From Streptomyces paludis (lineage in GTDB: Bacteria > Actinomycetota > Actinomycetes > Streptomycetales > Streptomycetaceae), in contig NZ_CP031194.1 in the NCBI RefSeq assembly GCF_003344965.1, positions 5,270,001 through 5,334,000 of the forward strand: 64,000 nucleotides of DNA, read 5' to 3'. The position numbers and the translations under genes were made by a program. Below, in pieces: positions 3,981 through 46,126 of the stretch (position 1 is the stretch's first letter; each line of letters starts with the position of its first letter). The notes under the pieces were generated by a model. The model saw only the letters and a program-made list of their open reading frames with translations, was not told the DNA's origin and did not search any database.

Positions 3981-4619
3981 ATGAGGGGCGAACCCAATTG
4001 CCCGAAGTGCGGTGGCCGGCTCAGGGCGCCCGGTCTCTTCGCCGACTCCTGGCAGTGCGACGCGCACGGCATCGTCCATCCGCTGCAACCCGTGATACCA
4101 CCCAGCGTCGAAGCGCTCGAAGTCGTCGTGCACCGCGCCCGCGTCCCCGTCTGGATGCCCTGGCCGCTCCCGATCGGCTGGCTCTTCACCGGCGTGGCGT
4201 ACGCGGGCGACGAACGCAGCGGGGGCCGCGCCACCGCCGTCGCCTGCTCGGGCCCGGGACCGCTCGGCGGCGCCGGTGAGCTGCTGCTCGTCGCCGAGGA
4301 GCTGGGCGTCGGGCTCGGCGCGCGCTACGCGGGGATCGAAGGACCCGACCCCGGGTCCGCCATCCACGCCGACAAACCGCCGCAGACCAAACTCCTCGCG
4401 GCCGGCCGCCCCACCCCGCTCTGGCATGTCCCCGAGGCCCCGCAGGACCGCGCGGTCTTCGCGGGCGAGGCGCTCGGCCTCTGGCTCTGGGCGATCGTCT
4501 GGCCGGAGCAGTCCGGCATGCTCCTCTACGACGAACTCGTCCTGACCGATCTCCGCGAGGCGGGCCAGGGCACGGAGCTGCTGCCCTGCGGCGCCCTCTC
4601 GCCCCGGCTGCTGGACTGA
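3981..4619 (+). CDS. DUF6758 family protein with N-terminal zinc ribbon
   Basis: The 212-residue protein begins MRGEPNCPKCGGRL, a CxxC half-ribbon; Cys in SWQCDAHG may be a further metal ligand. The rest is an alpha/beta domain rich in Leu and Trp (GLWLWAIVWPEQSG) with no recognised catalytic motif. It matches a conserved actinobacterial family of unknown function (DUF6758). An in-frame TTG at 3972 is nearer the GGAGAGG at 3961-3967, so the true start could be 9 nt earlier. The gene precedes the PHP gene by 114 bp, with a small hairpin (4640-4659) and a possible -10 TATCCT (4671-4676) between them. Confidence 0.7.
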   Translation: MRGEPNCPKCGGRLRAPGLFADSWQCDAHGIVHPLQPVIPPSVEALEVVVHRARVPVWMPWPLPIGWLFTGVAYAGDERSGGRATAVACSGPGPLGGAGELLLVAEELGVGLGARYAGIEGPDPGSAIHADKPPQTKLLAAGRPTPLWHVPEAPQDRAVFAGEALGLWLWAIVWPEQSGMLLYDELVLTDLREAGQGTELLPCGALSPRLLD

Positions 4620-4733
4620 CCCGCGTACGGGGCGTATACGGGGCGGCGGATCCCGCCCCCGCGCGAACGTTATCCTTGAGCGTCCTCATCACCCGCGCCG
4701 AGCCCCTCGGCCCCGAGCCCCGGAGCCCGCGTC

Positions 4734-5612
4734 GTGCGCATCGACCTGCACACCCACTCCACGGCCTCGGACGGTACGGACACCCCCACCGAGCTGATCC
4801 GCAACGCCGTCGCCGCCGGGCTCGACGTGATCGCGCTGACCGACCACGACTCCACCCGCGGCCACGCCGAGGCGATCGCCGCGCTCGCGGATCTCGGGGA
4901 CACCGGCCGCCGGCTCACCTTCGTCCCCGGCGCCGAACTCTCCTGCCGGCTCGACGGGGTCGGACTGCATCTGCTCGCGTATCTCTTCGACGCCACCGAG
5001 CCCGAGTTCCTCGCCGCGCGCGAGCTGGTACGGGACGACCGCGTGCCGCGCGCGCGGGCGATGGTCGGCAAGCTCCAGGAGCTGGGCGTGCCCATCACCT
5101 GGGAGCGGGTGGCCCGGATCGCGGGCGACGCCTCCCTCGGCCGCCCGCACATCGCCACCGCCCTTGTCGAACTCGGCGTCGTCGAGACCGTCTCCGACGC
5201 CTTCGCCCCTCAGTGGCTCGCGGACGGCGGGCGCGCGTACGCCCCGAAGTACGAACTCGATCCGGTCGAGGCGATCCGGCTGGTCAAGGCCGCCGGGGGC
5301 GTCACCGTCCTCGCACATCCCCAGGCCGTCAAGCGCGGCCGGACCGTGCCCGAGTCCGCCCTCGCGAAGCTCGCCACCGCCGGACTCGACGGCATCGAGG
5401 TCGACCACATGGACCACGACGGCCCGACCCGCGCCCGGCTGCGCGGACTGGCCGCCGAACTCGGGCTGCTGACCACGGGCTCCAGCGACTACCACGGCAG
5501 TCGCAAGACCGTGGAACTGGGCGCGTTCACCACCGACCCCGAGATCTACGGGGAGATCACCCGGCGCTCCTCGGGCGCGTTCCCGGTGCCGGGCGCGGGC
5601 GGACACGCGTAA
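4734..5612 (+). CDS. PHP-domain phosphoesterase (RNase AM / YciV type)
   Basis: 292 residues beginning with the metal-binding motif IDLHTHS (D4, H6, H8), followed by TDHDS, GAELS, RPHIA, AHP and the terminal GSSDYHG motif. This is the complete set of His/Asp ligands for a trinuclear metal centre in PHP phosphoesterases. The length and order match the stand-alone PHP enzymes that hydrolyse 3',5'-nucleoside bisphosphates and trim short 5' RNA fragments; that specificity is inferred from family membership. The start is GTG at 4734. The gene lies upstream of the marC-like gene on the same strand, separated by a pyrimidine-rich 186-bp spacer. Confidence 0.85.
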   Translation: MRIDLHTHSTASDGTDTPTELIRNAVAAGLDVIALTDHDSTRGHAEAIAALADLGDTGRRLTFVPGAELSCRLDGVGLHLLAYLFDATEPEFLAARELVRDDRVPRARAMVGKLQELGVPITWERVARIAGDASLGRPHIATALVELGVVETVSDAFAPQWLADGGRAYAPKYELDPVEAIRLVKAAGGVTVLAHPQAVKRGRTVPESALAKLATAGLDGIEVDHMDHDGPTRARLRGLAAELGLLTTGSSDYHGSRKTVELGAFTTDPEIYGEITRRSSGAFPVPGAGGHA

Positions 5613-43665: not shown

Positions 43666-44610
43666 GTGAGCACCCTCAGCAGTGACGCCACCGCACACCG
43701 ACCCATCGGCCTCACCGCCCACAGCGGCATCGACCGAGCCGCGCACCACCGCCTCGACGAAGCATGGCTCGCCGCCGCCTGGAGCCATCCCACGACCCGT
43801 GTCTTCGTGGTGTCCGGCGGCCAGGCGCTGATCGACGACACCCCCGACGGCCGGACCGAACTGGTCATGACCCCGTCCTTCGAAGCGCCCCTCACCGAGA
43901 CCCACCGCTACTTCCTCGGCACGGACGCGGACGGAGTCCGCTACTTCGCGCTCCAGAAGGACACACTGCCCGGCCGGATGGACCAGTCGGCGCGCCCGGC
44001 GGGGCTGCGCGAGGCCGGCACCCTGCTCTCGGCGCGCGACGCGGGCCTGATGGTGCACGCGGTGGCGCTGGAGAACTGGCAGCGGCTGCACCGCTTCTGC
44101 TCGCGCTGCGGTGAGCGCACGGTGATCGCGGCGGCCGGCCATATCCGCCGCTGCCAGGCGTGCGGCGCCGAGCACTACCCGCGCACCGACCCCGCCGTGA
44201 TCATGCTGGTCACGGACGAGGAGGACCGCGCGCTCCTCGGCCGCCAGGTCCACTGGCCCGAGGGCCGCTTCTCCACACTGGCCGGCTTCGTGGAGCCCGG
44301 CGAGTCGATCGAGCAGTCCGTGGTCCGCGAGGTCTTCGAGGAGGCGGGCGTCACGGTCGGCGAGGTCGAGTACATCGCCAGCCAGCCGTGGCCGTTCCCG
44401 TCGAGCCTGATGCTGGGCTTCATGGCACGCGCCACCTCGTCGGAGATCACGGTGGACGGCGAGGAGATCGAGGAGGCCCGCTGGTTCTCCCGCGAGGACC
44501 TCCGCGCCGCCATCGAGTCCGGCGAGATCCTGCCACCGGCAGGCATCTCGATCGCCGCCCGCCTGGTCGAACTGTGGTACGGAAAGCCCCTACCCAAGCC
44601 GACGTCCTGA
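43666..44610 (+). CDS. nudC: NudC-type NAD(H) pyrophosphatase
   Basis: 314 residues. N-terminal NUDIX-like domain, then a zinc ribbon (CSRCG and CQACG), then the Nudix box GFVEPGESIEQSVVREVFEEAGV, and the NudC-specific SQPWPFPSS about 17 residues after the box. NudC hydrolyses NADH to NMNH and AMP and removes NAD caps from the 5' end of RNAs. GTG at 43666 follows GGAAG. It is separated from the downstream mycoredoxin gene by 1.27 kb of unusual repeat DNA. Confidence 0.92.
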   Translation: MSTLSSDATAHRPIGLTAHSGIDRAAHHRLDEAWLAAAWSHPTTRVFVVSGGQALIDDTPDGRTELVMTPSFEAPLTETHRYFLGTDADGVRYFALQKDTLPGRMDQSARPAGLREAGTLLSARDAGLMVHAVALENWQRLHRFCSRCGERTVIAAAGHIRRCQACGAEHYPRTDPAVIMLVTDEEDRALLGRQVHWPEGRFSTLAGFVEPGESIEQSVVREVFEEAGVTVGEVEYIASQPWPFPSSLMLGFMARATSSEITVDGEEIEEARWFSREDLRAAIESGEILPPAGISIAARLVELWYGKPLPKPTS

Positions 44611-44744
44611 ACCACGGGGAGGGGCGGGGGCCGGGGCCGGAAGCGGGGGCAGGGGGAACGGCGGGGCGGTGACGCGGTGACGCGGTGACGCGGTGCGGGC
44701 CGGGGTTTGTCGAGGGTGGGTCGGTGGCGGGGGTGCGGGGTGAC

Positions 44745-45066
44745 GGGGCCGCCCCTCCTGGTGTGAGTGTCGCGTCTCCGTGTCAGGTGTAAAGGGCGCT
44801 CCTACGTCGCGTCGGCTGCGCCGATTCCGCTTCGCTGCACCCTTGACACCTGCCCCGGAGTCGCAAGTGCGGCTTGTTGGGAGGGGCGGCCGGGTGGGAG
44901 GGGGTTGCCCGGGGGGCCTGCCGTACTGCCGGCCGGTTCAGGGGCCGGCGGGCCGGTGGTCGGATAGCCCCTGCGGGGCTGCGCGGCAGAGGAATGGGGC
45001 GGCTCGGCACCGGCTCGGCGGCTGACGGTCCGCTGTGTGCTGAGACTCAAGCCCCGCTGGTCACCG
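44745..45066 (+). repeat. Left arm of long inverted repeat
   Basis: Colinear with the reverse complement of 45495-45807 over its entire length, with few indels. Exact matches include 44838-44860 with 45696-45718 (23 nt, containing TTGACA) and 44983-44999 with 45560-45576 (17 nt). The outer end begins GGGGCCGCCCCTCC. Confidence 0.9.
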
Positions 45067-45101
45067 TCGCGCTGTGGTGCCCGGAAGGCGGACGGTTCTG
45101 C

Positions 45102-45128
45102 TGTCCGGCCGGGCCTGCGGGCCGGACA
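45102..45128. repeat. Local hairpin inside the repeat island
   Basis: TGTCCGGCC (45102-45110) pairs perfectly with 45120-45128 around a 9-nt loop, just inside the left arm. No equivalent was seen by the right arm. Confidence 0.6.
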
Positions 45129-45141
45129 TCCCACCCATTCG

Positions 45142-45270
45142 CCCCATATGGGGCGGGTTGGTGGGTGGCTGGGGGTCTCCTCGGGTGGCACGTGTGTCCT
45201 CGGGTGCATTAGCGGCACTCCTGGGTGCATGGGCGGCCTTGAGGGGTCCACTTGGTGCCACACGCGTCCC
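45142..45270 (+). repeat. 129-bp direct repeat, copy 1
   Basis: Begins with the palindrome CCCCATATGGGG and ends CACGCGTCCC. It matches 45345-45473 at a constant 203-bp offset without indels, including exact runs 45187-45201 and 45248-45261. Confidence 0.85.
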
Positions 45271-45344
45271 GGTGGCCACTTTTCACGGTCGGACGGGGCC
45301 TGCCGCCCGGTCGGCCTCTCGGGACGCCCACCCCCGCCTGCATG

Positions 45345-45473
45345 TCCCATATGGGCTGGTTTGGTGGCCTATTGAGGGCCTTCTTGGGCGGCACGTGTGT
45401 CCTCAGGTGCGTTAGGAGCACTCCTTGGCGCATGGACGGCCTTCAGGGGCCCACTTGGTGCCACTCACGTCCC
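45345..45473 (+). repeat. 129-bp direct repeat, copy 2
   Basis: Second copy, beginning TCCCATATGGG. Exact runs 45390-45404 and 45451-45464 correspond to copy 1. Confidence 0.85.
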
Positions 45474-45494
45474 ACTAACCCCACCACCCCCACC

Positions 45495-45807
45495 CGGTGA
45501 CCAGCGGGGCATGTGTCTGAGGAACTGGCGGCCGTCAGCCGCTGAGACGGGCCGGGCAGCCCCATTCCTCTGCCGCGTGCCCCGCAGGGGCATCCGACCA
45601 CCGGGCCGTCGGACCCTGAGCCGAGTGGTAGTGCAGCGGGCCCCCTGGGCAACCCCCTCCCACCGGCCGCCCCTCCCAAAAAGCCGCGCTTGCGGCTCCG
45701 GGGCAGGTGTCAAGGGTGGGCGCAGCCCATCGCGCAGCGACGCGACGGAGGAGCGCCCTTTACTCCTGGCCTGGAGTCGCGACACTCACAGCTGGAGGGG
45801 CGGCCCC
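45495..45807 (-). repeat. Right arm of long inverted repeat
   Basis: Reverse complement partner of 44745-45066. It ends GGAGGGGCGGCCCC at 45794-45807. The bases just outside the two arms show no obvious target-site duplication. Confidence 0.9.
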
Positions 45808-45883
45808 GTGCCCAACGGCCGGACCGCCCCCGTTCCTTTGGCTTCCTGGTCCTGGCGCTGGCACGCGCCACCCGCGTTCGCGG

Positions 45884-46126
45884 TCAGGCGCCGACCTTCT
45901 GCTTGACCTGGGCCAGCGACGGGTTCGTCAGCGTCGAGCCGTCGGGGAAGAGCACGGTCGGGACCGTCTGGTTGCCGCCGTTCGCCTTCTCGACGAAGGC
46001 CGCCGACTCCGGGTCGTGCTCGATGTTGATCTCGGTGTACGCGATGCCCTCGCGGTCCATCTGGCCCTTCAGCCGACGGCAGTATCCGCACCACGTGGTG
46101 CTGTACATCGTCACAGTGCCCGGCAT
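45884..46126 (-). CDS. mrx1: Mycoredoxin (glutaredoxin-like)
   Basis: 80 residues, start TVTMYSTTWCGYC: the CGYC redox motif near the N-terminus is typical of actinobacterial mycoredoxin-1. Later TVPTVLFPDGS gives the cis-Pro loop and NPSLAQVKQKV the last helix. Mrx1 reduces protein-mycothiol mixed disulphides in actinobacteria, which use mycothiol instead of glutathione. The ATG at 46124-46126 follows GGAG at 4 nt; a longer open frame upstream has no support. It is divergent from uvrD2, with a 173-bp shared promoter region. Confidence 0.9.
   Translation of the reverse strand: MPGTVTMYSTTWCGYCRRLKGQMDREGIAYTEINIEHDPESAAFVEKANGGNQTVPTVLFPDGSTLTNPSLAQVKQKVGA

Follow-up and report, generated by a model that had tools for sequence, protein, structure and literature searches.

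A dispersed, protein-less foldback family in Streptomyces carries a conserved hairpin of single-stranded-DNA type that also occurs on plasmids

An intergenic island in Streptomyces paludis is a copy of a new dispersed family of foldback elements, which share a conserved hairpin of the single-stranded-DNA type with plasmids. The island lies between a nudC-like gene and a mycoredoxin-like gene (Table 1) in the window, by which we mean the whole 64,000-nucleotide stretch that was analyzed (positions 5270001-5334000 of an 8.45-Mb genome in a single contig). In our main reading, a non-autonomous, protein-less foldback family of Streptomyces has inserted one of its copies here, and the ends of its elements would be initiation sites on single-stranded DNA, resembling sso and ssi sites; we give this reading a probability of about 0.5. 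We found no description of the repeat or of the hairpin in the literature, although subscription papers were mostly outside the search and an earlier description is possible.

Table 1. Features of the island and its neighbors, with coordinates in the window, and cargo genes found between arms at other loci
Feature	Coordinates	Strand	Remarks
nudC-like NUDIX gene, left neighbor	43666..44610	+	ORF; 3' end toward the element; synteny with mycoredoxin gene kept in relatives
Left arm of element	44743..45066	+	85% inverted match to right arm; matches arms at 38 other loci
Three-leaf core, left arm	44792..44847		GNA form on - strand
Left-arm leaves	44797-44811, 44812-44824, 44825-44839		Between AAGGG and CCCTTGAC
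Spacer direct repeat, copy 1	45143..45270	+	
Spacer direct repeat, copy 2	45346..45473	+	81% like copy 1
Right arm of element	45495..45809	-	85% inverted match to left arm
Three-leaf core, right arm	45709..45760		GNA form on + strand
Right-arm leaves	45717-45729, 45730-45740, 45741-45755		Between GTCAAGGG and CCCTT
Mycoredoxin/glutaredoxin-like gene, right neighbor	45884..46126	-	ORF; 3' end toward the element, convergent with nudC; beside nudC in relatives
L059 cargo			No family
L065 cargo			2OG-Fe(II) oxygenase and two others
L066 and L073 cargo			S66 LD-carboxypeptidase in both
L075 cargo			No family; weak crystallin-like
L222 cargo (other Streptomyces)			Aldo/keto reductase and TetR
L223 cargo (other Streptomyces)			SnoaL
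L224 cargo (other Streptomyces)			Polyketide-cyclase-like and MarR pair

The distance from the nudC stop (44610) to the mycoredoxin stop (45884) is 1,273 bp, most of which is occupied by the arms and the spacer. An earlier note on this DNA had described a kilobase-scale inverted repeat here, in a gap that seemed out of place and held no recognizable gene or transposase, and each of these observations held. The match between the arms splits into several ungapped inverted pairs when the repeats of the window are compared. Finding this palindrome again at 38 further loci rules out chance. Those additional copies, together with homologs of the element in the genomes of other strains or species, also rule out an assembly artefact. 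A home-made, codon-based gene caller found no gene inside the island, though mechanical open reading frames are present there. Rfam gave no family at the gathering threshold over the window, and the three weak matches in the island at E ≤ 10, to eukaryotic or archaeal families and far below their cut-offs, were not credible.

Comparison with relatives gives good support to an insertion between nudC and the mycoredoxin gene. We searched 295 genomes of the genus for nudC and found it in 292, and among the best 30 of these loci, 29 of which belong to relatives, a mycoredoxin-like gene adjoins nudC in 27 of the 29. The gap measures 24-340 bp in 20 of these 27 relatives and 661-1395 bp in the remaining seven, lengths that are approximate because some of the mycoredoxin matches there are weak. 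A kilobase inverted repeat was found in the gap of none of the 27, the seven long gaps included, and we therefore regard the element as an insertion at this locus. The core pattern described below is absent from all 29 relatives.

The element is dispersed through its own genome, as the earlier note had proposed, with at least 39 chromosomal copies of a palindrome that lacks a transposase and is mostly 0.8-1.05 kb long. Exact matches to the core pattern numbered 81 (40 forward and 41 reverse; control 0), the left arm as a BLAST query gave 49 matches (40 candidates scored), and a 28-base motif with up to three mismatches gave 31 (control 0). Arms were mapped at 39 loci, namely the window and the 38 further loci, and two more core-pattern positions lie outside this set. 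The start GGGCCGCCCCTCC and the core are common to 77 arms at these loci. The direct repeat of the spacer, which the earlier note does not mention, is present once or twice per element, many of the other elements having a single copy. Arm order was highly regular: 34 loci read + then -, one read ++-, one read +--, and three had a single arm, so that in all 36 loci with two or more arms the first was + and the last was -. Because the arms are inverted and face a constant way, the GNA form of the core (defined below) lies at the 3' side on either strand.

The nearest relative of an arm was its own partner in only 1 of 74 arms, where about one was expected by chance. We therefore reject concerted evolution between paired arms, and arms have either been exchanged between copies or descended separately. 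The 31 motif matches and 41 listed loci all fall within 1.546-5.734 Mb, or 49.5% of the chromosome, with none in the outer arms. Streptomyces mobile elements usually gather in the outer chromosome arms. Confinement to the middle half is unusual for a mobile element, and we count it against our best explanation.

Each arm contains a stem formed by GTCAAGGG and CCCTTGAC around three abutting hairpins, which we call the three-leaf domain; on one strand the core reads GTCAAGGG-leaf A-leaf B-leaf C-CCCTT. When GNA loops were required, 124 of 162 distinct cores could be divided into three hairpins that abut one another and leave every base paired or in a loop. When any 3-nt loop was allowed, 352 of 363 loops were GNA in 121 distinct oriented copies, many of which came from a pattern fixing AAGGGCGCT, GCGTCG, and CCCTTGAC, so that the junction and some of leaf C were held constant. 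The names GNA strand and TNC strand were set by loop majority, and 8 of 129 copies with ambiguous orientation were left out. C-GNA-G loops and sheared G·A pairs are unusually stable in DNA; for the telomeres of Streptomyces, PMC4513846 says so. The leaf stems of the 121 copies contained 1618 Watson-Crick pairs, along with 173 A·G, 12 G·G, 5 G·T, 5 A·C, 3 C·T, and 1 C·C.

The outer stem (offsets 4-11) was Watson-Crick paired in 741 of 968 cells, compared with a mean of 372 and a maximum of 426 in 500 shuffles. Its mismatches on the GNA strand were mostly G·T (80), G·G (61), and A·G (53), as opposed to A·C (13), C·C (5), and C·T (4). The excess of G·T over A·C was 67, above every shuffle (mean 31.5, range 6-53), even though the shuffles already lean toward G. 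Among 17 copies that aligned without gaps, pairing extended to 90.9% of cells versus 73.9% in shuffled data, the covariation score was 0.419 versus 0.121 (sd 0.016), and 93 cells had changed on both sides versus 36.0. Weaker signals in the same copies were the number of double-change pairs (16 versus 13.6; 6 of 500 shuffles) and of pair types (43 versus 37.3; 21 of 500). Covariation sits in the outer stem and leaf A, and leaves B and C are nearly invariant in the tested set.

DNA folding energies favored the same strand. In the left arm, the GNA strand reached -48.2 kcal/mol (z -5.97) versus -41.9 (z -3.86) for the opposite strand, and in the right arm -47.8 kcal/mol (z -4.26) versus -44.3 (z -2.52), although the energy model of the left window arm did not form all three leaves. 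Taken from sequence comparison, the loops, mismatches, and covariation give good support to the view that the core behaves as folded single-stranded DNA of one particular strand. We also observed an inner-arm motif, CGCGGCAGAGGAATGGGGC (window positions of about 44980-45003 and 45555-45579), whose sequence, unlike that of the covarying stems, is preserved across divergent Streptomyces copies, and this motif may be a candidate protein site.

Insertion sequences lie inside an arm in four own-genome elements (L051, L052, L070, and L058). In the first three, at about 3.30, 3.35, and 4.95 Mb, a 1.8-kb insertion sequence encoding a 551-aa IS4-type transposase occupies the identical spot in the arm core and is identical over approximately 1,794 bases, which suggests that it targets the hairpin. 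In L051 it has the 10-bp repeat TGTCAAGGGC on both sides. A different, IS5-like insertion sequence (DUF4096/DDE) lies in the arm of L058 (positions 4258-5178 of that locus), near the spot used by the IS4-type sequence.

The three-leaf hairpin is also carried by plasmids. A Gulosibacter hairpin query matched 32 plasmid records, all from Actinomycetes, with 30 matches outside annotated features, one overlapping an IS110 gene, and one in an unannotated record. A mycobacterial query matched 31 plasmid records, three of them from Acidiphilium. We fetched 25 loci from 24 plasmids and could assign the GNA strand in 24 of the 25. Ten of the fetched loci had a MobC or relaxase gene nearby (nine with annotated MobC and one with a relaxase and, instead of MobC, a hypothetical gene), and in all ten the hairpin lay 220-1,522 bp upstream with its GNA strand equal to the sense strand of MobC or the relaxase. 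In seven of the ten the recombinase gene is followed by the hairpin, a small gene on the reverse strand, mobC, and the relaxase gene, and two more resemble each other, so there are about three to four independent cases of this constant strand sense. The expected place of an sso is immediately 5' of the origin, on the strand that is nicked. No consistent nic motif from the list that we tried was found between hairpin and mobC. On other plasmids the neighbors vary (ParA, ArdC, primase, and hypothetical genes), and from these no single function follows. Separately, a 1,579-bp Curtobacterium plasmid (NZ_CP126277.1, L275) with one annotated gene, of the CopG family, bears the three-leaf hairpin and is possibly a satellite plasmid.

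Because the domain keeps one strand sense at the plasmid loci fetched that have a MobC or relaxase gene nearby, we read it as a putative initiation site on single-stranded DNA, a role that we offer as a reasoned guess. Like the sso sites of rolling-circle plasmids and the ssi and Frpo sites of conjugative plasmids, the domain is plasmid-borne, lies beside transfer genes, and appears to be strand-specific folded single-stranded DNA. It differs from them in fold, in sequence, and in its occurrence in Actinobacteria, and the likeness is a computational one. The available text of a survey of Frpo and ssi sites contains no occurrence of 'Actino' (PMC11541004).

Beyond this genome, the core pattern was found in 71 of 295 Streptomyces genomes (with one control match in the set) and in 17 of 394 genomes of the class, representing 6 of the 137 genera (no control matches). 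Scanning named genomes gave at least 113 core-pattern stretches; among those listed, 31 were from outside Streptomyces, including three in Caulobacterales bins. An inverted, facing partner lay 281-4964 bp away for 47 of 71 evaluable cores in a mostly-Streptomyces group (108 cores, including 8 non-Streptomyces loci). In the named non-Streptomyces group a partner was found for 2 of 13 evaluable cores, both belonging to one Actinomadura locus (L099), which indicates that the domain is usually solitary outside Streptomyces. A Pfam scan of neighbors of non-Streptomyces cores found no gene in common, and two of the scanned neighbors were integrases. The Leifsonia and Salinibacterium cores (L126:2240-2287 and L095:463-510) are near a phage-type integrase gene, in opposite relative orientations. 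A phage collection had no match to the window arm or to the mycobacterial plasmid hairpin. We note that core-pattern or BLAST matches also occur in Alphaproteobacteria (L153, L188, L189, and the three Acidiphilium plasmids), which could reflect chance or a wider spread.

Some elements carry genes between their arms. Called genes other than those of insertion sequences were present at 5 of the 39 own-genome loci (L059, L065, L066, L073, and L075; Table 1). L066 and L073 align at 88%-92% over 2.2 kb from terminus to terminus, and at 95% within the cargo, in different flanks. This end-to-end alignment with the same cargo at different sites argues for mobility with cargo. In other Streptomyces, 5 of 20 fetched loci, which were picked for + and - cores close together, had called genes inside the arms, and the Actinomadura locus has a DUF222 gene between two arms that are 99% alike. 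Among the cargo genes looked at, a non-exhaustive set, no transposase was found apart from the IS insertions, and PADLOC gave only weak or CRISPR-associated 2OG matches on cargo.

These features invite comparison with ordinary miniature inverted-repeat elements (MITEs) and mobile insertion cassettes. Under this explanation, the arms would be the long terminal repeats left by a DDE transposon that had lost its transposase gene or now carried passenger genes instead, a related transposase elsewhere would move the element, and the hairpin would be a transposase binding site. The inverted ends, the lack of an own transposase, the passenger genes, and the absence of the insertion from relatives are all as expected, and a TGCGGGTCAG terminus is conserved in many own-genome arms, with a similar terminus at both ends of 21 elements, although not at the window copy itself. 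Those 21 elements, however, show no target-site duplication: the best direct repeat was 0-4 bp, equal to shuffled flanks, with boundaries uncertain by a few bases. In this respect the earlier note, which had seen no clear duplication at the window copy and had suggested a non-autonomous mobile element, is borne out on both counts. The ends also have a covarying single-strand fold with free choice of sequence in the stems, unlike a double-strand transposase site, and the domain occurs alone on plasmids. We consider this explanation unlikely, while it is the best placed of the alternatives.

The setting between convergent genes raises a different option, that the element is transcribed and serves as a bidirectional terminator or 3' RNA structure. 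Several relatives have a simple terminator-like hairpin in the same gap, and more copies lie between convergent genes (13) than between divergent ones (3). Yet 20 of the 36 copies classified with the home-made gene caller lie between tandem genes (3 of the 39 loci had no gene call on one side and were left out). The window's own 48 neighboring gene pairs comprise 9 convergent, 30 tandem, and 9 divergent. In addition, the GNA loops and mismatches fit DNA folding of one strand, namely the antisense strand of whichever gene would be first to send its transcript into the arm here, and plasmids carry the domain outside any convergent-gene context. A role as terminator is thus improbable. The structured RNA locus that the earlier note had also suggested is not favored either, since GNA triloops with purine-purine and G·T mismatches on one strand point to folded DNA.

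We regard with stronger doubt the idea that the arms are related to the ends of Streptomyces replicons, though placed internally, and are bound by telomere proteins such as Tap and Tpg. The available text of PMC4513846 describes telomere palindromes II and III folding as single strands with GCA loops closed by sheared G-A pairs, and the adjacent hairpins of this rabbit-ear structure resemble the core. The core differs in being internal and dispersed, in having three leaves within one long stem, and in its presence on circular as well as linear plasmids. A linear Streptomyces plasmid (NZ_CP109028.1; L242 and L289) has the hairpin about 0.6 kb from both ends in inverted orientation, as a telomere relation might predict. 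Its GNA form, however, is on the strand with its 5' end at the terminus, which is opposite to the folded 3' strand of a telomere on this one linear plasmid checked. The domain was also found in genera that, to our knowledge, are not known for linear replicons, which counts against this idea.

The least credible option is a REPIN-like repeat of giant size that owes its movement to a Y1 (RAYT/IS200) transposase, since, although the element consists of two inverted palindromic units and is intergenic and high in copy number, the Y1_Tnp profile (PF01797) had no match in the own genome and was absent from 14 of 20 core-rich genomes (controls positive in 5 of 14 genomes). Like the element, REP, BIME, and REPIN sequences are intergenic, occur in many copies, pair their palindromic units in inverted orientation, and form a DNA hairpin, but their units are about 25-40 nt, as opposed to about 300 nt with a three-leaf core, and the element differs further in its cargo genes. 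With PF01797 present in only 6 of the 20 core-rich genomes, a Y1 transposase was also rejected as a helper. The IS91-type Y2 transposase profile (PF04986) had no matches in the own genome and likewise none in control genomes, which makes that search uninformative. Among eukaryotic foldback elements, Galileo and FB are similar in having long inverted arms and a small or variable middle, but no THAP/P-type transposase is known for the bacterial element.

In the element, the arms are set so that the foldable form sits near the 3' end of either strand. Under our main reading, that of a protein-less foldback family with single-strand initiation sites at its ends, either strand, once freed, could then receive a primer close to its 3' end and serve as a template from end to end. 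In this way the element, with any cargo, would pass through a single-strand intermediate, and the enzyme that cuts and inserts it would act in trans. No helper gene was found by the Y1 profile search of the own and core-rich genomes or among the cargo genes looked at. The claim lends itself to testing, given a short hairpin with leaves that can be redesigned at will in laboratory strains.

We advance only tentatively the broader proposal that the family is a new class of gene-mobilizing cassette in Actinobacteria. Such a cassette would be protein-less, with ends that are inverted single-strand replication starts of plasmid type, and would copy itself and its cargo through single-stranded DNA using host or plasmid enzymes; the hairpin would then be a previously unrecognized start for the lagging strand or for entry in many actinobacterial plasmids. 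If true, a single DNA fold would tie the second-strand start of actinobacterial plasmids, after transfer or rolling-circle replication, to the spread of kilobase palindromes through Streptomyces chromosomes, which would be explained without a transposase. It would also bear on how such palindromes pick up single accessory genes, and it may reveal a new kind of single-stranded-DNA start site borne by selfish elements.
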